A stretch of DNA of 64,000 bases from contig NZ_CP060397.1 in the NCBI RefSeq assembly GCF_015840715.1, positions 1,178,001-1,242,000 on the forward strand, written 5' to 3'. Of this stretch, positions 20,075 through 32,741 are shown in pieces. The stretch's first letter is position 1, and every line of letters begins with the position of its first letter. The translations under genes and the position numbers were made by a program. The notes beneath the pieces were generated by a model. The model saw nothing but the letters and a program-made list of their open reading frames with translations. It had not been told where the DNA came from and ran no database searches. Origin of the DNA: Synechococcus sp. CBW1004 (GTDB lineage Bacteria; Cyanobacteriota; Cyanobacteriia; PCC-6307; Cyanobiaceae).

Positions 20075-21337
20075 TCAGGGCATGGGAACCGGAACAGCAG
20101 CCTCTGGGGCCTCGGCGAGCACCGAAGCAGTGGACGTCATCGGTTCAACGACGGCTGCTGCCTCCACCGCAGGAGCCGGGGCGACCGATCCCGATGCGGC
20201 CGGCGGCAGGGGCGGCAGCTCGGGAGGGGGCGTCAGGGCGGCGGGCTCGACGGAACGGCCGGCCTTCGGCACAGGCGGCTGGGAAACGCCCTGGAGAGCG
20301 GCGGCGCTGGCCGGCCGTGAGGTGGCCGAGGGTGCCCCTGAGGCCTCGCGGCGGCCGGAGCGTGCCGCTTCCGGGATCACAGGGAGCTCGGGGCCTCCGC
20401 CGGCTGCTGCGGTCGCTGTGGGCCTGGCGGCGGCAGGTCTTGCGCTGGCAGACGGTATAACCGGTGCGGCGGAAGGCAGGGGATGCAGATGCACCACCGC
20501 CGGCACCAGGGAGCCACGGGCTGGGAGGCGCTGCTGACGCGACCAGCCATCGATCTCGTGCAGCACCGCCGGATCGGCTGGCGCCTCGAGGATGTCGACG
20601 GAGCCATCGCTCTGCAGCGCCAGCGGCACAACCACCGGCTCGGTGACCGCCTGACTGGGCACATGCACCAGGCGGGCGGGACTGAGCTGCAGAGGGGCGT
20701 CCGGCAGCTTGAGCAGCGCCTGGCGCATCGGCTCGCGCCAGGGCGATGGCAGAGGTGCGAGCGGATCGCCACTGCCGCGGAGCACCGCCCGCTCAGCCAG
20801 GGCCAGGGGGGCCATCGGACCCTCCTGCAGGTCTTCCAGACCGATGCTGCCGCCGAGCAGCTGGGCGCGGGTGAAGGCGCGGCCGAGGAGGGTGTTGGCC
20901 GGGGAGGTGGCCGTGGCCCCTGCAGCGGCCTGGGATCCGCCCAATGCTGTTGCCGGCGGGGGGGTGGCCGCGTCAAGGCTCGCCGAGTAGGGCCTATCGA
21001 GCAGGGAGGAGGCATGGGAGCCGGCGCTGCTCAGCAGCACGCCGACACCGCTCACGGCACCCTGCGCGGCCTGGCCGAGGGCACCGCTCACCGCCTGGTT
21101 GGCCTGACCCGCCAGCTGCTGCACCGGTCGGGCCGCCCCCAGCAGTTCGTTGATGCTCAAGGGTGTGGCGCGGGCGAGGGGCGAGGGCGGCAGCGAACGG
21201 CCCGGCGGAGTGATCTCGCGCTGGTGGGCGATCCAGCGGTCATGCAGATCGATGGCGACAAGGGGAACCCAGAACACCTGACTGAGCAGCGCCCAGGCGA
21301 TGGCTTTGGGGGAGATGCCTGAGCCGGAGGGTTGCAT
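20075..21337 (-). CDS. Hypothetical Ala/Pro-rich protein with N-terminal membrane segment
   Basis: The 420-residue protein begins MQPSGSGISPKAIAWALLSQVFWVPLVAIDLHDRWI, with one hydrophobic segment (residues 11-29) that could anchor it or serve as a signal. A moderately structured middle follows (SINELLGAARPVQQLAGQANQAVSGALGQ, LHEIDGWSRQQRLPARGSLVPAVVHLHPLP), and a long Pro/Ala/Ser-rich C-terminal tail. No family is recognised. It stands directly downstream of the SLBB export gene on the same strand, with about 90 bases between, suggesting a link to polysaccharide export or to the cell envelope. The opposite strand also has long open frames because of GC bias, but this one has the better composition. 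Confidence 0.6.
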   Translation of the reverse strand: MQPSGSGISPKAIAWALLSQVFWVPLVAIDLHDRWIAHQREITPPGRSLPPSPLARATPLSINELLGAARPVQQLAGQANQAVSGALGQAAQGAVSGVGVLLSSAGSHASSLLDRPYSASLDAATPPPATALGGSQAAAGATATSPANTLLGRAFTRAQLLGGSIGLEDLQEGPMAPLALAERAVLRGSGDPLAPLPSPWREPMRQALLKLPDAPLQLSPARLVHVPSQAVTEPVVVPLALQSDGSVDILEAPADPAVLHEIDGWSRQQRLPARGSLVPAVVHLHPLPSAAPVIPSASARPAAARPTATAAAGGGPELPVIPEAARSGRREASGAPSATSRPASAAALQGVSQPPVPKAGRSVEPAALTPPPELPPLPPAASGSVAPAPAVEAAAVVEPMTSTASVLAEAPEAAVPVPMP

Positions 21338-21429: not shown

Positions 21430-22638
21430 TCAACGGTTGAAGCGGTCGTAAAGGTAAAATGTATTCACAATCGAGGTCAAAGGCGCCACCAATTCATTAA
21501 CGAGATCTACTGTCTTGCCATAATAGCTACGCCGCACTATTACGGTGTCACGATCCCTCAAGGGGGGATTAAAGCCTTGGGAGATATCCTTGCCGGGCTG
21601 ATAGTCGTAAAATTCCGAGGTAGTAGTGCCGTTGCGGTTGAGGCGCACCAGCTCAATGCGGCCCTTGTTGGCACGCCACGGAGTGGGCCCACCGGCCCGC
21701 ATCAGCACCTCCTGCAGCGGCGTGTTGGATGGCACCGCCAGGGTCCCGGGAGTCTTCACCTCACCCAGCACCGTGACGTTGATGGTGGCTGGGGACAGGT
21801 TGGAGATGCCGATCTGAATCACCTCGCTGGGCAGCGGCTTCTCCGCCCGGGTGACGATCAGGGTGTCCCCATCGAAGAGGATGGGGTTCTGGCGCTGGTT
21901 GCCCACCTGCAGCAGCTGGGCGAGATCGAGCACCGTCTGCTTCTCCCCACCGCCGGGGCCGGCGACACGCCGCAGGATCACGCGGCGGATGTCGGCATTG
22001 AGAGTGATGCCGCCGGCCGCCTGGATCGCGGAAACGGGCGTGGTGAGCCCACCGCCGCCCCCCCCCGAGCCGGCTCCACCGCCGCTGGAAGTGGCGGGCC
22101 CAGCGCCAGCACCACCACCTCCGAAGGAATAGAGGCCGGGACGCCCAACCTCACCCAGCACGCTGACCTGCACGGGCCTCGCGGAGGTGAGGCTGAGGAT
22201 CAGCTGCGGCCGCACAAGGTGACGGGCATACAGGGAGGTCAGCCAGCGGCTGGCCTGACCTAGCGTGAGACCGCTGAGCTGAACGGAGCCGAGCAGCGCC
22301 AGAGTGGTAGTGCCATCCGGCAGAATCACCACGGTCCCGCCCACCTCCTTGGCGGAGGGATCGAGGAAACCCAGCTGCAGCTGATCACCGGGGCCGAGGG
22401 TGTAGAGATCGCTGTAGACCGTCGGCAGGGAGGCGTCGGCGGACGGAGCGGGGGCAGCTGCGGCAGGAGATCGAAGGTCACGGGCCTGCTGAGCCTGGGC
22501 AACGTCTGCGGCCAGTGGAATTGTGGCGGTCAGCACGGCCGCTACTCCGGCGACCCACCGCCGGGAAGGAGCACCGCGGCTGGGGAGGAAGCGTCGGAAG
22601 CGATCCACGGTTGCGAGGCATAGGCTGACGTCTACCAA
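21430..22638 (-). CDS. Polysaccharide biosynthesis/export protein with SLBB domains (Wza-like)
   Basis: This is an outer-membrane polysaccharide export family protein. An N-terminal signal-like segment (VAGVAAVLTATIPLAADVAQAQQ) is followed by the Poly_export motif YTLGPGDQLQLGFLDPSAKEVGG, GTTTLALLGSVQLSGLTLGQASRWLTSLYARHLVRPQLIL, then SLBB domains (VSVLGEVGRPGLYSF and a second around VTVLGEVKTPGTLAVPSNTPLQEVLMRAGG). A Gly/Ala/Ser-rich loop separates strands of the first SLBB. The C-terminus, LVNELVAPLTSIVNTFYLYDRFNR, is a possible membrane helix. It is divergent from the tyrosine autokinase gene with a 231-base shared intergenic region, the classical Wza-Wzc pairing of capsule or exopolysaccharide export. 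Confidence 0.9.
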   Translation of the reverse strand: MVDVSLCLATVDRFRRFLPSRGAPSRRWVAGVAAVLTATIPLAADVAQAQQARDLRSPAAAAPAPSADASLPTVYSDLYTLGPGDQLQLGFLDPSAKEVGGTVVILPDGTTTLALLGSVQLSGLTLGQASRWLTSLYARHLVRPQLILSLTSARPVQVSVLGEVGRPGLYSFGGGGAGAGPATSSGGGAGSGGGGGGLTTPVSAIQAAGGITLNADIRRVILRRVAGPGGGEKQTVLDLAQLLQVGNQRQNPILFDGDTLIVTRAEKPLPSEVIQIGISNLSPATINVTVLGEVKTPGTLAVPSNTPLQEVLMRAGGPTPWRANKGRIELVRLNRNGTTTSEFYDYQPGKDISQGFNPPLRDRDTVIVRRSYYGKTVDLVNELVAPLTSIVNTFYLYDRFNR

Positions 22639-22869: not shown

Positions 22870-25470
22870 GTGACTCAGGTGGGAGCGCCGACTGATCCAG
22901 GCCTCAGCGGCGGCAGCCCTAACAGCCTGCAGCCTGGCGCTCCCTCGGCCCTGACCATGGCCTACAGGGGTTCCCCACTGTCGGCGGACCTGGGGGTTGC
23001 GGGGACGGGCGACCAGGGGAGCGACTTCAACTTCGCCTCGCTGCTGCGCACGATCAAGCGGCGGCAGGGTCTGTTTCTATTCACGTTCGCGGTGGTCACC
23101 GGCGCCCTGGCGGCCAACACACTGCGACAGCGCATTTTCTCACCCGTCTATCGGGGTGGCTTCCTGATTCAGGTGAGGAATCCGTTCGAATCACGAACGG
23201 CCGGCACCAATCAAGCCGAGGGTATGGTGGGAGCTATCGCCCGCAGCAATTACAACGCAGATACCAACAGCCTCACCGTGCTGCTCCGCAGTCCCCTGCT
23301 GATCCGCCCGCTGGCTGAACAACAGGGGGTGCGCATGAACGAGCTCATCAACAACCTCAGAATTTCGCCGGCCTCAACCGGCAGCGGCGGGGGAGACGCC
23401 TCCACCGAGAATGTGCTCAACGTCACCCTGAACTGGTCGAATCCGGTGCAGGGCCGTCAGATTCTCTCGGAACTCTCCAAGATCTACACCCGATTCTCGC
23501 TGATACAACGCCAGGAGGCTCTGGATTCAGGCATCAAGTTCCTTGATCGTCAGGCACCCGAGATCCAGCAGCGCGTGGCTCTCCTCCAGAACGACATGCT
23601 GCGCTTCCGGGAGCGCAACAACAATCTCGACCCTTCCGCAAATGCCCAGGCGATTCTGGCGACCCGCGAAGGACTGCTGCAGCAGCTTCGCGCGTTGCAG
23701 ACCCAGCAGGTGGAACTGAACAGCCGCCTGGCCTCGATCGCCTCAGGCCGGTTGCAGTGGTCGCCCAGCGGCGCTCCCACGGCGGTTGAACAGCTGGGCC
23801 GCCAGGGCATTGCCACCCCGGGCCGAGGGGCGGGGGCTGAGGTCGCCGCCGGAACCCCGACGCCGCTGGAGCAGCTCAATCAGTTCGAGACGGACCTGGC
23901 CACGGCACGCGCCACCTATCGGGAGGATTCGCCGATCGTGCAGTCCATCCTGGCTCGTCGCAATTCTCTCCTTCCGGTGGTACGGCGCCAGGCGGCCGAT
24001 AACGTGCGGGCCCAGCTGCTGGCCAACGTGGCCCAGCAGGACGAGATCAACCGTCAGATCCTGTTGCTGAATCAGAACTTCCGCAACAACCCGCAGAAGA
24101 TGCGTGAGTTTGAGGATCTGCAGAGTCGTCTCAATCTTGCGCGCGAGCACTACATCTCCTACATACAGGCCCGCGAGAGCTTCCGCCTGGAGCTAGCACG
24201 CTCCACCACCCCCTGGCAGGTGATCAGTCCGGCCGAATTCGCCGACATCCCGGTGGAGCCCAACATCCAGCGCAGCCTGCTCAAAGCCCTGCTGATCGGG
24301 CTGCTCGCCGGCTTCGGTGCCGCCCTGATCCGCGAGCGCACCGACCACGTTTTCTACACGCCGATGGACGCGGAGCGGGATCTTCAGCTACCTGTGCTCG
24401 GCCTGATCCCGTTCCTGCCCCTGGATCCGGGCGTGGAGATCTCAAGCAGCATTGCCAAGATGTCCTCGAGCGAACGCTTCGCGATCAAGGAATCCCTACG
24501 CAGCCTGTTCACCACCTTCCGGTTGCTGCGGGCCGATCGCAACATCCGCATGGTAGGCGTCACCTCATCCACCCAGGGAGAGGGAAAGTCGACGGCCGTG
24601 ACGATCTTTGCGCGCACCTTGGCGGATCTCGGCCTGAAGGTGCTGGTGATCGATGCCGATATGCGCCTGCCGATGCAAAGCCGCTATGTGGGCGTTGAGC
24701 AGGGCGAAGGACTCTCCAACCTGCTCTCCGATTCGACCCTGCGTGCCAGCGAACTGATCCTGACAGTGGCCGACAACTTCGACATCCTGCCGGCAGGCCC
24801 GAAGCCCCCTGATCCGGCCAAGCTGCTCAACTCCAACCGCTGCCAGGAAGTGGTCGAAGAGGTACGCAACCTCCCCGGCTACGACATGGTTCTCTGGGAC
24901 GCGCCCCCCTGCCTGATGCTGGCGGATCCCATCCTGCTCGGCGAGAAGCTTGACGGCATCCTCTTCCTGGTGGGCCTGGGCAAGGTGAACCGGGAGCTGG
25001 CACCGCAGGCCTGCCGCCGCATCAAAGCCACCGGTGTGGATGTGCTGGGTTTGATCTGCAATCAGGTGACATTCCCGAGCCGCCTCAACGACTACGGCTA
25101 CGAATACGGTTATTACTATCACTATGCCTATTCGGATTCTTACTCTAACTCCACATTTGGCAACTACGAGCGCAACCTGAAGGGCTACATCAAAAGCTAT
25201 CGCGACTCCTATCTGCGCCGGGATGGCAACGGATCCGGCAGTTCCTACATCAGCAATCGCTATCTGCGTGATGTGGACACCGTCCAGTCCTACCAACAGG
25301 CCGACAGCGACAGCTTCGAAGCTGGTGGCCGAATCAGCGACACCGAAACCTCCCCACCGCCCCGATCAGAAGCCGGCACGAGGCGTCACCGCCACCGACG
25401 ACGCACGCGACTGCAACGGGCTGTCGGCTGGCTGCGAGAGCGGCTGCCTCTGCCAGGTCAACGCCGCTGA
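22870..25470 (+). CDS. Wzc-type polysaccharide chain-length protein / tyrosine autokinase (BY-kinase)
   Basis: The 866-residue protein combines a Wzz domain and a BY-kinase. The first membrane helix (residues ~70-90, LFLFTFAVVTGALAANTL) and the second (~475) flank a periplasmic coiled-coil region. The cytoplasmic kinase carries Walker A STQGEGKST (about 567-575), Walker A' VLVIDADMRLP (about 591) and Walker B MVLWDAPP. The C-terminus has a Tyr cluster around DYGYEYGYYYHYAYSDSY (about 740-760) and further Tyr beyond, the expected autophosphorylation sites. The start is a GTG at 22870. Its phosphorylation state would control chain length and export; a dual-specificity phosphatase gene sits convergently 150 bases downstream. 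Confidence 0.94.
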   Translation: MTQVGAPTDPGLSGGSPNSLQPGAPSALTMAYRGSPLSADLGVAGTGDQGSDFNFASLLRTIKRRQGLFLFTFAVVTGALAANTLRQRIFSPVYRGGFLIQVRNPFESRTAGTNQAEGMVGAIARSNYNADTNSLTVLLRSPLLIRPLAEQQGVRMNELINNLRISPASTGSGGGDASTENVLNVTLNWSNPVQGRQILSELSKIYTRFSLIQRQEALDSGIKFLDRQAPEIQQRVALLQNDMLRFRERNNNLDPSANAQAILATREGLLQQLRALQTQQVELNSRLASIASGRLQWSPSGAPTAVEQLGRQGIATPGRGAGAEVAAGTPTPLEQLNQFETDLATARATYREDSPIVQSILARRNSLLPVVRRQAADNVRAQLLANVAQQDEINRQILLLNQNFRNNPQKMREFEDLQSRLNLAREHYISYIQARESFRLELARSTTPWQVISPAEFADIPVEPNIQRSLLKALLIGLLAGFGAALIRERTDHVFYTPMDAERDLQLPVLGLIPFLPLDPGVEISSSIAKMSSSERFAIKESLRSLFTTFRLLRADRNIRMVGVTSSTQGEGKSTAVTIFARTLADLGLKVLVIDADMRLPMQSRYVGVEQGEGLSNLLSDSTLRASELILTVADNFDILPAGPKPPDPAKLLNSNRCQEVVEEVRNLPGYDMVLWDAPPCLMLADPILLGEKLDGILFLVGLGKVNRELAPQACRRIKATGVDVLGLICNQVTFPSRLNDYGYEYGYYYHYAYSDSYSNSTFGNYERNLKGYIKSYRDSYLRRDGNGSGSSYISNRYLRDVDTVQSYQQADSDSFEAGGRISDTETSPPPRSEAGTRRHRHRRRTRLQRAVGWLRERLPLPGQRR

Positions 25471-25619: not shown

Positions 25620-26171
25620 TCACTTGGCCAGGAGCCGCTCCAGCAGTTCAAGGTGCGAGACGATCGGCCGTGCGGCCGGATGGCAGCGGCGTACCCAGTC
25701 GAGGGCATCGAACAAAGACATGTTGCGCGCTCGGGCGGTGAGCCCCACGGCGATCAGGGGAGAGCGCTCGATGCCGGCCATGCAATGCACATAGACGGGC
25801 CGCCCCTGATCGAGCAGCTGCTGGGCAAGGTCCAGGCCGGCCGCCAGCCTGGCGGCATCGAGGGGCTCCTGACGGCGGTGATCGGGCAAGGGAACGCCTG
25901 CACTCAACCAGTGAGGCGGCACGGGCGCCGCTCGCTCCTCATGGGGGTAGCAGCAGCTGAACCGACTCTGCATGCCGGCCTGCTCCAGCTGCTTCCAGTG
26001 GGCCTCGCCCGCAGGCATCGGCCCTACTGCCAGCCGGTTGGTGAGCACCCAGCTGTAGGGGAGCGGCCACTCCGGGGGGATCAGGGAGGGCGGCCGCGGG
26101 GCGCGATCTTCGCCGGGAGGGCCCTCGCCATCGGAGAGTGGCAGCAGGCGTCGCAGCAGTCGTCTCATCAC
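25620..26171 (-). CDS. Dual-specificity/tyrosine phosphatase family protein
   Basis: This 183-residue protein carries the PTP signature HCMAGIERS (Cys130, Arg136) in the context DQGRPVYVHCMAGIERSPLIAVG, with an earlier SWVLTNRLAVGPMPAGEAHWKQL that is typical of atypical DSPs, and an Asp-containing loop (VPLPDHRRQEPL) that could supply the general acid. No signal peptide is seen, so it acts in the cytoplasm. It is convergent with the BY-kinase gene, 150 bases away. The natural inference is that it dephosphorylates the kinase's Tyr cluster, although most systems use a low-molecular-weight or PHP-type phosphatase instead. Confidence 0.82.
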   Translation of the reverse strand: MMRRLLRRLLPLSDGEGPPGEDRAPRPPSLIPPEWPLPYSWVLTNRLAVGPMPAGEAHWKQLEQAGMQSRFSCCYPHEERAAPVPPHWLSAGVPLPDHRRQEPLDAARLAAGLDLAQQLLDQGRPVYVHCMAGIERSPLIAVGLTARARNMSLFDALDWVRRCHPAARPIVSHLELLERLLAK

Positions 26172-26181
26172 AAAGCGCGCA

Positions 26182-26513
26182 TCAAGGCCGTCGGAGCCAT
26201 CGGGACAGCAGCATGAACGGGAGCAGCCGCAGGTCGCCGGGGCTGCGGTTCAGTTTGCAAGGGCGGCCGGTGCCGAGCACCACCACGTGCGCCACCGGTG
26301 CGGAGCACCGGCCGAGCACGGCTGCGGCGCTCTGACGTTGATAGGGTCGCTCCAGCCAGCGCGAGAGTCCCTCGGTGGTGAGGGGCGTGGAGAACAGCCA
26401 TTAGGATCCCGAGCGTCGCGATCACCGGCGCACTCGCCCCGGATGACGGCCCAGAGCAGAACCATCCCCAGGGGCAACAGCAGCAGGGGGAGGAGTTTGC
26501 TGAGCAGAAACAC
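26182..26513 (-). pseudogene. YdcF/ElyC-type DUF218 protein remnant
   Basis: From a GTG at 26513 the frame reads VFLLSKLLPLLLLPLGMVLLWAVIRG, the typical membrane start of DUF218 proteins. Homology then shifts frame, and from about 26400 to 26260 reads WLFSTPLTTEGLSRWLERPYQRQ followed by HVVVLGTGR, the usual YdcF continuation. The frame joining the two parts contains TGA and TAA stops. The rest of the catalytic DUF218 domain is missing and the frame ends at 26182. The gene is inactive unless the shift is a sequencing error, and the missing C-terminus argues against that. It lies between the phosphatase gene and the EpsI-like gene. Confidence 0.6.
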
Positions 26514-26628
26514 GCGCCGAGGACCCCGAAGGCCGAGAGGAAGGCCGCATGCTGCGGCTGGGCTGCAGGCTGACCTCCAGCCCCCAGGCCCGCAAAACCG
26601 CACAATCCAAACAGGGCCGGCGCACGCC

Positions 26629-27357
26629 TTAGCTGCCACTCTTTGGGAGAGGCGGAACCGACTGAGAGCGCTGCAGGGATGCGATGAGCGAATTCCAGGC
26701 CTGGACCGGTGGCGGCTGGGCTGTGGTGCTCCGCAAGGTGACCAGCAGACAACGGAATTCTCGGTTGCGGCTGAAGCCCACCAAGCTGCGCAGGCGATCG
26801 GTGCGCGTGCGGAGTTGACGATCGACAGCACCCTGAAGCGCGGCAAGCGTGACGGCGGAATCGGCCGAAGAATGGCCCTGGAAGACAAGGCAGGTCTGGT
26901 AGGCAGGTCGTCCCTGAATCGTTCCGGAAGCGACACCGGGCAGGGGAACATCGAGCCTCCTCCTGGTGAGAGACAGTTGCGGCAGATCGCTGGTGATCCA
27001 GGCCACCTGAAAGTCATCCCTGCGGCGCACATGCACAGAGACCAGCTGCAACTGGCCGGCTTCCGGTAGACGCCAGGCCAGCAGCTCAGACAACCCCAGC
27101 CCCTCAGCCTGTTGCATGGGCCTGGAGGGGAGAGGCCTCGGATCAAGACCCACCTGGCTCAGACGCAGGGCAATCCGTTCCGGGCTGACTGGCTGTGCCT
27201 GCGGCCAGGGCGGCAGAACGAGCGCGCGCACACAGGCCAGGGCCGCGAGGGCAGCAAGGACCGCAAACCACACCTGGAGGAAAGAAGGGGCATCGGGAAT
27301 GAAATGTCCGTCGGGATCTGTTGCCTTCGAGCGGCCAGAGAAAGCAGACATCTTCAA
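26629..27357 (-). CDS. Cyanoexosortase-associated EpsI-like protein
   Basis: This 242-residue protein has a single N-terminal membrane segment (FLQVWFAVLAALAALACVRALVL) and a periplasmic domain containing LAWRLPEAGQLQLVSVHVRRRDDFQVAWIT and RPAYQTCLVFQG. Size, topology and its place directly after the exosortase fit the EpsI-like protein that accompanies cyanoexosortase A. The assignment is mainly by context plus topology. Its TTG start overlaps the exosortase stop (TTGA), so translation is coupled; an ATG six bases further in (27351) is an alternative. Its role in exosortase systems is unproven, possibly a periplasmic assembly or polysaccharide-related factor. Confidence 0.72.
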   Translation of the reverse strand: MKMSAFSGRSKATDPDGHFIPDAPSFLQVWFAVLAALAALACVRALVLPPWPQAQPVSPERIALRLSQVGLDPRPLPSRPMQQAEGLGLSELLAWRLPEAGQLQLVSVHVRRRDDFQVAWITSDLPQLSLTRRRLDVPLPGVASGTIQGRPAYQTCLVFQGHSSADSAVTLAALQGAVDRQLRTRTDRLRSLVGFSRNREFRCLLVTLRSTTAQPPPVQAWNSLIASLQRSQSVPPLPKSGS

Positions 27358-28358
27358 GGCTGCGATGCGGTGTCAGCGCCTGATTCAAGAGGAGGAAGTT
27401 CCCGTTCAAGCAAGTTCATGTAGAGCACTCCATAGGCAAAGACAGCGACTCCGGAGAACACCAAAGAACCAGTATCGTCGTGAAAGAAAGTAAACAGAGG
27501 AGTCCCCTTCCCCTGCCCCATGCCTGCTACTGCGGAAAGAAGAGCAATACGAAGAGTATTGCAAATCAGGCCGATCACTGGTGCGGCCGCAAACAGGAGC
27601 AGCCTGCTAGGCAAGGACCTGATGCGAAACGCCAGCATAAAGATTAGCCCTACACAGAGGATCTGTGCCATCATGTCCAAGCCATTGCACTCCGCCAGCA
27701 CCTGAACGCCTCCACCTGGGAGAGACACACTGCGCCCATTGACGACAACATCGAGTCCAAGAATCGACAACCAGAAGCCAGCACCCTGAGCGGTGATCAG
27801 ACTTAGCGGCTCTTCGGGTAACACCCGCATCAGCAGCGCAAAGGCGGGCAGCAGCATCAGGCAGAGAAGCGGATCACGGAAACGGGACAGGTGGGTCAGG
27901 GGCAGACACAGCAAGGTCAGAGCCAGACCGGCTAGCGGCGCGAGCGCGAAGATCATGCCGTCCCAGTGCAGAATGATCGCGGTGCGCGCCAGGACCCAGA
28001 TCAGCAGAACCGTGCCGGTAATGAGCCCGATGATTCCTGGACGGGGCAGGAGATCCTCCAGTTGATCCTCAATGCAGATGAGAGCCCCCCCCCAGATCAT
28101 CAGAGCCAACACCGAGATGTTGGCTGACTGGCTGGTGTAGAAGACGGAGCAGCTCTGAGTGGCTACAAGCAGGGCAAGCAAAAGCCACAGATTGCGAGGC
28201 GTGGCAGGTGGAATGGACGGCAGCCAACCCTGGAGGCGGGCGGGAAGACGATCACGGAGCTGGTCCAGGCGACGGTTGAGCGGTCTGATGAAGGGAGGAA
28301 GGTGTCCCGCCGGACATCGCTGGGTGCCGGCAGGCGGGCGTAAATCGGCTTCCGCCAT
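27354..28358 (-). CDS. crtA: Cyanoexosortase A-type membrane transpeptidase
   Basis: This 334-residue protein has about eight transmembrane helices. The three exosortase active-site residues are present: Cys224 in LAECNGLDMM, Arg270 in CNTLRIALL and His293 in FFHDDTGSLVF. Exosortases cleave and transfer PEP-CTERM-like tailed proteins in the cytoplasmic membrane, usually in exopolysaccharide producers. The cyanobacterial subtype is inferred from the host and the associated EpsI-like partner immediately downstream. No PEP-CTERM substrate is visible in this window. The gene follows a GT4 gene by 8 bases and overlaps the next gene by 4, so it belongs to the polysaccharide operon. Confidence 0.87.
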   Translation of the reverse strand: MAEADLRPPAGTQRCPAGHLPPFIRPLNRRLDQLRDRLPARLQGWLPSIPPATPRNLWLLLALLVATQSCSVFYTSQSANISVLALMIWGGALICIEDQLEDLLPRPGIIGLITGTVLLIWVLARTAIILHWDGMIFALAPLAGLALTLLCLPLTHLSRFRDPLLCLMLLPAFALLMRVLPEEPLSLITAQGAGFWLSILGLDVVVNGRSVSLPGGGVQVLAECNGLDMMAQILCVGLIFMLAFRIRSLPSRLLLFAAAPVIGLICNTLRIALLSAVAGMGQGKGTPLFTFFHDDTGSLVFSGVAVFAYGVLYMNLLERELPPLESGADTASQP

Positions 28359-28366
28359 GGCTCGAC

Positions 28367-29698
28367 TCAGGAGGAACGTGAGAGTAAGTCTGGCTGGGAA
28401 GACAGCGGCGCATCCCGCAGTGGATCGGGCAACGGCTCGAGCTCCTCGCTCAGGGGTGGAGCGTAGGTCTTGCGAGCGAGGGGGAGGTGACGGGAGAGCA
28501 CTTCGGCATAAGCCTGGACGACGATCGCAGGAGTGGCGGTGGCCTGCAGGTAGCGACGTCCGGAGGCTCCCAGCCGCTGGGCCCTTTGCGGATCGGCAGC
28601 CAGCTCGCCGATGAAGGCGGCAAGGCCCTCGCTGTCACCGCTGCGGAAGGCTCTGCCGCAATCGGCTCGGGCCAGCTCGGTGCGCAGATAGGAGTGAGGG
28701 GCGCAGATCGCTGCCACCGGGGTGGCAGCCGCCAGGTGGCCATACAGCTTGCTGGGGGCCACCTGGCCCTCGGCGGCCTCCAGAAGGCTGACGATCGCCA
28801 GGTCGGCGGAGGCCAGCAGGGAGGGGAGCTGGTCGGCCTCCTGATAAGGCAGGAAGCGCACGTGGCTGAGCCCCTGCTGCTGCACCTTTTCCACCAGAGA
28901 CTTGTGCTGGGCGCCGGCGCCCACGATCAGAAACAGGATGTCGCTGCGATCACGAAGGCGCACGGCGGCGTCGATGAGCGTGGTGAGGTCGTGGCAGCGG
29001 CCCTGATTGCCCGAATAGAGCACCACGAAGCGATCTGCGAGCCCATGCCGCTGGGCGAAGAGATTCTCCGCCCGGGGGAGCGGCGTGATGCGCTCAGGAT
29101 CCGCCCAGCTGGGAATCACGGTGATGGGGGTGTGCACCTGGGGATAGTGATGACGCAGGTACGACAGCATCGTGGTGCTCAAAACGATAATCTCGTTGGC
29201 GCACTCGAGAGCCTGGGCCTGGAGCAGTCGCCAGAGCTTCACGATGGGTTGGTCGGCTGTGACGACCCCGAGCGAGACGGCGATATCGGGGTAGAGGTCG
29301 TAGACGAGCACCACATAGGGTGCCCGGGTGAGCAGGTGAGCCAGCCAGCCGACGATCGGCAGATAGGCGGGCTCAGTGCTGAACAACAGCAGATCTCCGC
29401 GTCGCCCCTGGCGAAGAAGCCGCAGCAGGGTACGCAGACAGAAGAGGAGGCTGTTGACGACACGGCCGCGGATGCGCTCCGGCCAGAAGCGCGACATGGC
29501 AGTACGACGGATGCAGCGATTGGGGAAGAACTCGATGCGTTCCGCCTCCTCGCGGCTGAAGGCATAGCCCGGCTGGCCGGTGAGCACGAGATTCTGAAGG
29601 CCTCGCTCCGCGAGGCGAGAGGACAGATCGCCGATGAACTGGCCGGTGGCGGCGAAATCGGGAGGGTGGTACTGGGAAACGATCGTCAGCCTGGCCAT
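28367..29698 (-). CDS. GT4 glycosyltransferase (WbuB-like)
   Basis: This GT-B enzyme transfers a sugar from an activated donor, probably to a lipid-linked glycan. The N-terminal half reads MARLTIVSQYHPPDFAATGQFIGDLSSRLAERG and PYVVLVYDLYPDIAVSLGV; the C-terminal half reads RFVVLYSGNQGRCHDLTTLIDAA, GAGAQHKSLV, and ASADLAIVSLLEAAEGQVAPSKLYGHLAAATPVAAI, as in WbuB/WcaI-type transferases. I set the start at 29698 (MARL), where the fold begins; an ATG at 29779 would add 27 basic residues. It heads the short operon with the exosortase and EpsI-like genes. Donor and acceptor are unknown. Confidence 0.88.
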   Translation of the reverse strand: MARLTIVSQYHPPDFAATGQFIGDLSSRLAERGLQNLVLTGQPGYAFSREEAERIEFFPNRCIRRTAMSRFWPERIRGRVVNSLLFCLRTLLRLLRQGRRGDLLLFSTEPAYLPIVGWLAHLLTRAPYVVLVYDLYPDIAVSLGVVTADQPIVKLWRLLQAQALECANEIIVLSTTMLSYLRHHYPQVHTPITVIPSWADPERITPLPRAENLFAQRHGLADRFVVLYSGNQGRCHDLTTLIDAAVRLRDRSDILFLIVGAGAQHKSLVEKVQQQGLSHVRFLPYQEADQLPSLLASADLAIVSLLEAAEGQVAPSKLYGHLAAATPVAAICAPHSYLRTELARADCGRAFRSGDSEGLAAFIGELAADPQRAQRLGASGRRYLQATATPAIVVQAYAEVLSRHLPLARKTYAPPLSEELEPLPDPLRDAPLSSQPDLLSRSS

Positions 29699-29928
29699 AC
29701 GCGAGCGCTCCACCCGCCAGCGCAGGCGCTCTGCGAAAAAACGCAGGGGACGTCGCGACAGGAGAAGCTGAATTGGCATGCAGGCGTGAACGCCGAAAGG
29801 TAAGCGAGTCGGAGTGGAGCCATGACGACAGGGTCATGCGGTCAACCAGGCAGAGTCTGACGGGCGTGGCAGCAGGCGAACACGCCGAGGGGGCGGGCTT
29901 GTGAGTGGACGGCTGGGCCCCGCAGGGT

Positions 29929-31589: not shown

Positions 31590-32740
31590 TAGTGTGCCGT
31601 CCCGCAAATAGCCGCTACAATATGAAGTGTCTCCCGAGGGGGTCGTTTCATGCCAAGCGGGCGCCCCATGGCTCCTCTGGAGCTGTCGGCTGATGAGGCC
31701 AGCCAGCTCCAGAGCCTGGCTGGATCAAGGTCCTTGCCCCATTCGATCGTTCAGCGGGCGCAGATCGTCCTGGCCTGCGCAGCTGGTGACACCAACACCT
31801 CAGTTGCCAAGCGATTTGGCGTTCGCAGCGCAACGGTGGGCAAATGGCGGCAGCGCTACCTCGATCTGGGGATCGAGGGGCTGCACGACGAGCTCCGTTC
31901 AGGCCGCCCGCGGACCTATGAGGACGACACGGTGGCGGAGGTGATCAACCGAGCCCTGCAGAGCAAGCCAACCGATGGCAGCACGCACTGGAGCGCTCGG
32001 ACTTTGGCCGCAGAAACAGGGATCTCCAAGTCCACGGTTCACCGCTGGCTGCAGACCTTCTCGCTCCAGCCCCACCGGCAGAAATCGTTCAAGCTCTCCA
32101 CCGATCCGTTCTTTGTGGAGAAGGTTCGGGACATCGTTGGCCTGTACCTGAACCCGCCCGACAAGGCGATGGTGCTCTGCGTCGACGAGAAGACGCAGAT
32201 CCAGGCCCTCGACCGCACCCAACCGCTGCTGCCCATGGGGCTGGGCTACGTGGAGGGTGTGACGCATGACTACATCCGCCACGGCACCACGACCCTGTTT
32301 GCCGCGCTGGACGTGGCGACCGGTGAGGTAATCACTCAGTGCAAACCCCGGCACCGCCACCAGGAGTTCCTGGGGTTCCTCAGGCAGATCGAGAAGTCCG
32401 TCCCCGAGGATCTGGACCTGCACTTGATCGTGGACAACTACTGCACCCACAAGCACGCCAAGGTGCGTGCCTGGCTGGCCCAGCGTCCCCGTTTCCACGT
32501 CCACTACACCCCCACCTACGCCTCCTGGCTCAACCAGGTGGAGCGCTGGTTTGGACTGATCACCCAGCGGGCAATCCGGCGCGGCAGCTTCTCCAGCGTC
32601 AAAGAGCTGATCGCCAGGATCGAGCAGTTTGTGGCCGCCTACAACACGACCAAGGCCCCGTTCAACTGGACGGCGACAGCTGACTCAATCCTGGAGAAGC
32701 TCCAGCGGCTTTGTGCGCAAATCTCTGGGACGGCACACTA
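31590..32740 (+). mobile_element. IS630-family insertion sequence, copy 1
   Basis: A 1151-bp element (counting the flanking TA dinucleotides) lies inside the GT2 gene. Its ends are inverted repeats: TAGTGTGCCGTCCC on the left and GGGACGGCACACTA on the right, with TA as the target duplication, as expected for IS630/Tc1. It carries one transposase gene with almost no spare sequence. It matches a second copy at 40853-42003; the only difference I noticed is T at 31630 versus C at 40893. Confidence 0.95.
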
Positions 32741-32741
32741 G
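31650..32741 (+). CDS. IS630-family transposase, copy 1
   Basis: The 363-residue DDE transposase begins with a helix-turn-helix region (NTSVAKRFGVRSATVGKWRQRY, then GISKSTVHRWLQTF). The catalytic core has Asp in MVLCVDEKTQIQALD, Asp in DLHLIVDNYCTH and Glu in YASWLNQVERWFG, the D-D-E spacing of the IS630 superfamily. The protein appears complete. Its stop codon TAG is made from the duplicated target TA plus the first G of the flanking gene, so the element does not encode its own full stop. A second copy with the same protein sequence is at 40913. Confidence 0.95.
   Translation: MPSGRPMAPLELSADEASQLQSLAGSRSLPHSIVQRAQIVLACAAGDTNTSVAKRFGVRSATVGKWRQRYLDLGIEGLHDELRSGRPRTYEDDTVAEVINRALQSKPTDGSTHWSARTLAAETGISKSTVHRWLQTFSLQPHRQKSFKLSTDPFFVEKVRDIVGLYLNPPDKAMVLCVDEKTQIQALDRTQPLLPMGLGYVEGVTHDYIRHGTTTLFAALDVATGEVITQCKPRHRHQEFLGFLRQIEKSVPEDLDLHLIVDNYCTHKHAKVRAWLAQRPRFHVHYTPTYASWLNQVERWFGLITQRAIRRGSFSSVKELIARIEQFVAAYNTTKAPFNWTATADSILEKLQRLCAQISGTAH

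Follow-up and report, generated by a model that had tools for sequence, protein, structure and literature searches.

The exosortase gene and its partner

The window, by which we mean the whole 64,000-nucleotide stretch of Synechococcus sp. CBW1004 DNA analysed here (C1:1178001–1242000), carries an exosortase gene and a small partner gene set among genes for polysaccharide synthesis and export (Table 1). The exosortase scored well above the gathering cut-off of the Pfam family Exosortase_EpsH (PF09721; 97.4 bits, cut-off 25.7) and above that of the NCBIfam exosortase/archaeosortase signature (47.8 bits, cut-off 23). Its best NCBIfam model was cyanoexo_CrtA (TIGR03763), and because the score of 106 bits falls under the cut-off of 150, the enzyme is called CrtA-like here rather than CrtA.

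Table 1. Features of the exosortase locus and positions of the tagged genes (window numbering, except where C1 is given)
Feature	Position	Strand	Basis or remark
Exosortase, cyanoexosortase-A-like, 334 aa	27354..28358	-	Pfam, NCBIfam, Cys224/Arg270/His293
Exosortase partner	26629..27357	-	start TTG 27357 (overlap) or ATG 27351
TTGA stop/start overlap, exosortase/partner	27354..27357	-	read in sequence
457-base stretch between partner and phosphatase, holding a frame-broken remnant	26172..26628	-	three-frame translation
Dual-specificity-type phosphatase, third gene of conserved block	25620..26171	-	Pfam DSPc
Wzc-type polysaccharide chain-length/tyrosine autokinase	22870..25470	+	TIGR01007, 123.6 bits (cut-off 108)
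Wza-type polysaccharide export protein	21430..22638	-	Poly_export and SLBB domains
Conserved protein, end of block	20075..21337	-	no family match (NCBIfam, Pfam)
Family-4 glycosyltransferase, 8 bases upstream of exosortase	28367..29779	-	NCBIfam and Pfam matches
Tagged genes (profile A1 matches)	C1 1989471, 2268750, 2288683, 2342391, 2771513, 2983305, 3459846, 3503888		outside window

The catalytic motifs of exosortases are given as Cys-x-Gly, Asn-x-x-Arg and His-x-x-x-Gly in PMC1569441. All three motifs of PF09721 enzymes were found in the window protein, as C224-N-G, N267-T-L-R270 and H293-D-D-T-G297. The preliminary description of this DNA had credited the enzyme with Cys224, Arg270 and His293 and had named mutation of these residues as grounds for rejecting it; all three are present, and they were invariant wherever an aligned row could be judged. 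The alignment, with 58 rows judged and 3 gapped, spanned the genus and reached into other cyanobacterial families; the three residues were identical in 21/21 rows of the genus, in 20/20 from the family's other genera and in 17/20 from outside the family, where the remaining three were gapped at these sites. An AlphaFold2 model of the enzyme (pLDDT 85.5) was mainly helical. Searches of the PDB gave no match by sequence to a solved exosortase relative (E ≤ 10) and none by Foldseek with the model (E ≤ 0.001). Within the genus, which is Cyanobium-like, 34 of the 37 genomes examined yielded an exosortase, and among named records the close relatives include Cyanobium, Synechococcus, Aphanothece and Microcystis elabens. 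An exosortase 40% identical to that of the window is also encoded on a contig (L228) that bears the label of a Thiodictyon metagenome bin, as a result of either mis-binning or transfer.

The partner gene overlaps the end of the exosortase gene by TTGA, as had been described, and an alternative ATG start lies two codons downstream of the TTG. An overlapping in-frame partner start at the exosortase stop was found in 18 of 20 relatives, and the junction reads ATGA, GTGA or TTGA in 19 of them; the exceptions to the overlap are L141, with CTGA, and L148, in which the overlap is kept and the partner is not open. In L148 and in L206 (from genome G002) the exosortase is open, and an open partner longer than 190 residues is missing directly downstream. 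The AlphaFold2 model of the window partner (pLDDT 87.6) consists of an N-terminal helix (residues 24–45), which is taken to cross the membrane, and an alpha/beta domain. Two cysteines, C154 and C201, were invariant in 30 aligned rows.

The description of the partner as EpsI-like found no support. The window protein gave no Pfam match at E ≤ 1, and searching 12 partner proteins against NCBIfam at E ≤ 10 returned only stray, unrelated models (E 0.13–0.26), each matched by one member; the EpsI model (TIGR02914) was not matched by any of the 12 in this search, although the library is not known to include it. Nor did TIGR04153, a family that sits downstream of exosortases in other cyanobacteria (G037, G040), match any of the 12 partners at E ≤ 10 or any protein of this genome at E ≤ 1e-6. 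Profile comparison of the partner with three TIGR04153 proteins gave P = 0.0062, and a genus-wide partner profile against 33 TIGR04153 sequences (one protein being represented twice) gave P = 0.021. After seven partners from other genera were added, the comparison with TIGR04153 reached P = 3.2e-5 (probability 72.5%) with both conserved cysteines aligned. The partner is taken as a probable divergent counterpart of TIGR04153, at most a remote relative, rather than as EpsI. Foldseek found no PDB match to the partner fold at E ≤ 0.001. The top rows of a second fold search were SciW (Z 7.2), EagT6 (6.5), LpqN (5.6) and PsbP (5.4), all at chance level for that tool (Z < 8); these proteins may share one alpha/beta fold, and no function of the partner is deduced from them.

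The pair is intact, and its probable role is to trim proteins that are then displayed on the outside of the cell.

A conserved polysaccharide-export locus

The genes downstream of the exosortase were compared with those of 20 fetched relatives. The phosphatase, whose DSPc match (E = 8.8e-8, 32.5 bits) lies slightly below the cut-off of 33.5, was present downstream of the exosortase in 20/20, and the partner in 19/20. The wzc gene (on the opposite strand), wza and the gene at 20075 adjoin the exosortase in 19 of the 20, the twentieth being a short contig stretch. The genes upstream differ between these 20 neighbourhoods; the glycosyltransferase was found in only five (L135–L139), where it lies directly upstream of the exosortase as it does here. 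Given that phosphatase, partner, wzc, wza and the 20075 gene are conserved in 19 or 20 of the 20 loci, the pair forms part of a conserved locus for polysaccharide export, which supports the earlier reading of the exosortase as tied to polysaccharide genes.

The gap between partner and phosphatase does not exceed 187 bases in 18 of the 19 relatives measured, and in the other, L144, it holds a different ORF of ~0.9 kb. In the window the gap spans 457 bases and contains the frame-broken remnant, two pieces of which gave no Pfam match; our guess is that it resembles the start of a YdcF/DUF218 protein. Elsewhere in the polysaccharide cluster, an ORF at 31650–32741 (+) reads by eye like an IS630-type transposase.

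Tagged proteins elsewhere in the genome

The preliminary description had found no substrate in the 64 kb, had expected the targets to be PEP-CTERM-tailed proteins and had proposed a genome-wide search for such tails. Searching the whole genome with the published tag models TIGR02595 and TIGR04155 (E ≤ 10) revealed no true tail above cut-off and no C-terminal Pro-Glu-Pro tag. TIGR02595 gave nine weak matches. The only one above its cut-off (17.1 bits, C1:3128860) falls within an ORF that runs on for another 164 residues, and it lacks a PEP motif; the single Pro-Glu-Pro hit (C1:996739) sits in the interior of a protein that by eye resembles a permease. Two secreted-looking proteins among the nine, with tails PVPGPLPILGAATAFSFSRRLRSR and PAPGPLPVLGAGAMFGFSRKLRRR, both scored below the cut-off, and tails of this kind also stood among weak hits in relatives.

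A profile was built from 11 variant tails (A1), all from the genus and two of them from this genome. When used to search the genome, it matched at least eight genes (E 1.4e-17 to 3.2e-11; next match E = 1.02), a number that may be a lower bound, since scoring covered 150 of the 298 initial candidates. Six of these genes are independent of A1 and the other two are among its rows. All eight lie outside the window, the nearest ~0.75 Mb away, and the window searched alone gave a best E of 0.056, in keeping with the earlier report that it holds no substrate. The expectation of tailed targets elsewhere in the genome thus held as to their existence and failed as to the tag, which is Pro-Gly-Pro rather than strict PEP-CTERM. 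The suggested search succeeded solely through A1, and through this profile alone does the genome escape the objection, raised in advance, that it might hold no PEP-CTERM-like proteins.

The tagged ORFs are 189–525 residues long, and in 8/8 the tail lies within 29–40 residues of the ORF end. A start and a hydrophobic, signal-peptide-like segment are intact in seven; the other (L074, C1:2268750-2268842, -) has an apparent in-frame stop inside the signal peptide and is probably broken. Once the tails are stripped, the eight proteins have no clear likeness to one another (best BLASTP E = 0.033). Pfam gave a single weak match among them, Tachylectin on L077 (15.4 bits of 29.8), and in NCBIfam one protein weakly resembled a ‘choice-of-anchor Q’ domain (14.1 bits of 25).

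The consensus of the variant tail is VPGPLPLLGAGAAFGWSRRLRRR. It begins with the motif x-P-G-P-L-P-(L/I/V)-L-G, continues with a short hydrophobic stretch and ends in SRRLRRR, so that all eight tails have the PEP-CTERM layout of motif, hydrophobic stretch and C-terminal basic cluster. The hydrophobic stretch is short and weak, with mean Kyte-Doolittle values of -0.02 to 0.48 over 18 residues. P-G-P replaces the P-E-P of PEP-CTERM in 8/8 tails, and the near-invariant Pro-Glu-Pro of TIGR02595 is absent from them. An alignment made by eye sets the variant tail against Pro-Glu-Pro tails of cyanobacteria, for example VPEPTTMLGLALAGAGLVYSRRRR, and the first positions of the TIGR04155 model align with VPGPLP. 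Among 41 distinct tails from fetched loci, the Glu position is held by Gly in 39, Ala in one, Ser in one and Glu in none, a count that taken alone is biased, the tails having been collected with a Glu-less model. Evidence independent of that model comes from TIGR02595 and TIGR04155, neither of which finds a Pro-Glu-Pro tag at any C-terminus in this genome.

With Gly in place of the PEP-CTERM Glu, all eight tags of this genome fall short of the cut-offs of the published models: one of the eight tagged proteins scored 12.6 bits with NCBIfam PEP-CTERM (cut-off 16), and seven gave no match at E ≤ 10. The standard TIGR02595 model can pick up the variant tail, and in some relatives such tails pass its cut-off of 16 (19.1 bits in G015, 18.7 in G031). 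In a literature search that covered few subscription papers, titles and abstract openings on exosortases and PEP-CTERM made no mention of a Pro-Gly-Pro variant, and nothing was found on PEP-CTERM in Cyanobium or on PGP-CTERM.

Co-occurrence of the variant tail and the exosortase

The variant tail was present in 42/42 genomes of the genus that were searched, with 3–53 matches each (E ≤ 0.01). The survey was extended to 300 genomes of the family, the exosortase and tail surveys being taken as covering the same genomes (their handles agree) and at most 26 tail candidates being scored per genome. An exosortase was found in 54 and the tail in 44; 42 genomes have both, 12 the exosortase only, two the tail only and 244 neither. 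The tail was thus detected in 42/54 exosortase-positive vs 2/246 exosortase-negative genomes. Outside the genus the corresponding figures are 17/29 and 2/246 (Fisher P = 1.6e-17); as the genomes are related and not independent, Fisher P values here overstate the evidence and serve as guides only.

In a tree of 72 exosortases, the enzymes of the family form two clades, that of the window with moderate SH-aLRT support (87%) and the second with a value of 100. Far from both stands a third group, which comes from other families and is presumed to be CrtB-type. Outside the genus, the tail occurs in 15/17 genomes with the window's clade vs 2/12 in which the second clade occurs alone (P = 3e-4). The two second-clade-only genomes with a tail (G100, G145) have a single copy each, and the two genomes with the window's clade and no tail are G129 and G225; of the 15 that carry it, two rest on weak matches (G095, best E 1.6e-5; G136, 7.1e-7).

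Five tail-bearing genomes yielded no convincing exosortase. Three belong to the genus, namely G005 (17 tails), G021 (6) and G030 (53), which are 84, 91 and 95% complete and split into 250–340 contigs; the two outside it are G157 (85% complete) and G164 (88%). Searching the five with PF09721 at E ≤ 10 gave one match, at E = 9.9. G030 stands out in having 53 tails and no exosortase even at E ≤ 10 in an assembly of ~340 contigs that is 95% complete, a pattern that reflects either an assembly gap or a lost enzyme.

In the 12 genomes that have an exosortase and lack the variant tail, TIGR02595 gave 14 matches at E ≤ 1; of the ten that were read, one resembles a genuine tag (L280, G146:C2:389571-389636). 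It belongs to a secreted-looking protein ~6 kb from a second-clade exosortase, which ends in APAPTSWLGLIVLAPLFALRRR plus 15 residues. The APAPTSWLGLIVLAPLFALRRR tail is possibly the tag of the family's second exosortase clade, again without Glu.

A charge swap beside the catalytic Cys, from Lys to the Asp found here, was tested as an explanation and dropped, since other enzymes, from the Pro-Glu-Pro genomes G037, G040, G059 and G044, have Glu, Asn or Gln at this position; the Lys-bearing enzyme group in that comparison is only presumed to be CrtB-type.

Proposed sorting system and alternative explanations

Taken together, these results make it very likely that the genome encodes a complete protein-sorting system with a single exosortase and a variant Pro-Gly-Pro tag. 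Secreted proteins would be made with an N-terminal signal peptide and the C-terminal variant tag, and after Sec export the tail would keep them in the inner membrane. The exosortase, acting through Cys224, Arg270 and His293, would cut near Pro-Gly-Pro and pass the protein on, with the partner assisting from the periplasm. Once mature, the proteins would probably leave together with the polysaccharide that the adjacent Wza and Wzc export, or become attached to it. This scheme of export, retention by the tail, cleavage, outward movement and a polysaccharide tied to the cell is modelled on Nostoc CrtB. Because the nearest tagged gene is so distant, nothing links the substrates to the neighbouring polysaccharide in preference to another.

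That the tail is a mere C-terminal membrane anchor or a lineage-specific module, with the exosortase acting on other targets, appears unlikely. Hydrophobic residues with a basic cluster behind them could indeed serve as an anchor on their own, and the five fragmentary genomes with tails and no convincing exosortase fit such a function; conserved prolines and a short, weakly hydrophobic stretch on eight otherwise unlike proteins are, however, the pattern of a sorting tag, and the tail is nearly absent where there is no exosortase (2/246) and tracks one exosortase clade. It is very unlikely that the pair is a degenerating relic with few working targets. Eight tails are fewer than in many relatives (range 3–53), one tagged gene has an apparent stop in its signal peptide and a broken gene remnant lies directly downstream of the partner, all of which would suit decay, but exosortase and partner are both open with the three catalytic residues kept, the seven other targets look intact, and the overlap is retained in the nearest five relatives at identities of 71–79% (exosortase) and 38–41% (partner). 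An ordinary cyanoexosortase A system with overlooked canonical PEP-CTERM substrates is what the best NCBIfam model would suggest, and we regard it as very unlikely: TIGR02595 and TIGR04155 recovered no true tail above cut-off from the whole genome even at E ≤ 10, and the 41 tails have Gly (39), Ala (1) or Ser (1) and never Glu, though they were found with a Glu-less model.

A complete system with a Pro-Gly-Pro tag is therefore the reading we adopt; it largely accounts for the missing substrates, which appear to lie elsewhere in the genome under a recoded tag. We also lean towards a broader proposal, that the exosortase clade of the freshwater picocyanobacteria around Cyanobium and its tags changed together, the PEP-CTERM Glu becoming Gly (rarely Ala or Ser). 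The Glu would then be a matter of clade-specific recognition and not of universal chemistry, and the second clade may read yet another tag. If this is so, hundreds of tagged proteins (804 matches in 42 genomes) would mostly escape current models. The results already show that published tag models miss candidate surface proteins in freshwater picocyanobacteria. An enzyme that appeared to lack substrates becomes part of a complete system, and its clade, together with the Glu-less tag, would offer a natural experiment on exosortase recognition.

Comparison with known systems

One of the closest known systems is that of CrtA (TIGR03763 with TIGR04153). The window enzyme has its top NCBIfam score with CrtA, at 106 bits, a small partner gene lies just downstream, and TIGR04153 proteins align with the window partner at the two conserved cysteines. 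It differs in that the exosortase falls under the cut-off of 150 and the partner matches no model, and genomes with TIGR04153 beside the exosortase, such as G037 and G040, carry Pro-Glu-Pro tails where the window genome has Pro-Gly-Pro.

CrtB of Nostoc punctiforme (TIGR04156 with TIGR04533) offers a parallel in gene arrangement. According to PMC12188702, the locus of this related exosortase gene, crtB, holds Wzy, Wza and Wzc homologs with an associated protein just downstream, so that both loci combine a downstream associated protein with Wza/Wzc polysaccharide genes. The same study reports that deletion of crtB abolished motility, biofilm and scytonemin and altered several PEP-CTERM proteins of the exoproteome. 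The window enzyme differs in reaching only 43 bits with the CrtB model (cut-off 300), and CrtB is reported to act on Pro-Glu-Pro proteins.

With the PEP-CTERM/EpsH system of Haft 2006, as set out in PMC1569441, the present system shares a tripartite C-terminal tag, many copies per genome and an exosortase amid polysaccharide genes; the near-invariant Glu of that tag is Gly in the tails of the window genome. XrtD (VPLPA-CTERM) and XrtC (VPDSG-CTERM) are set beside the window exosortase by their names, its scores with their models being only 30.3 and 10.9 bits, and those NCBIfam names show that the tag can differ when the enzyme differs.
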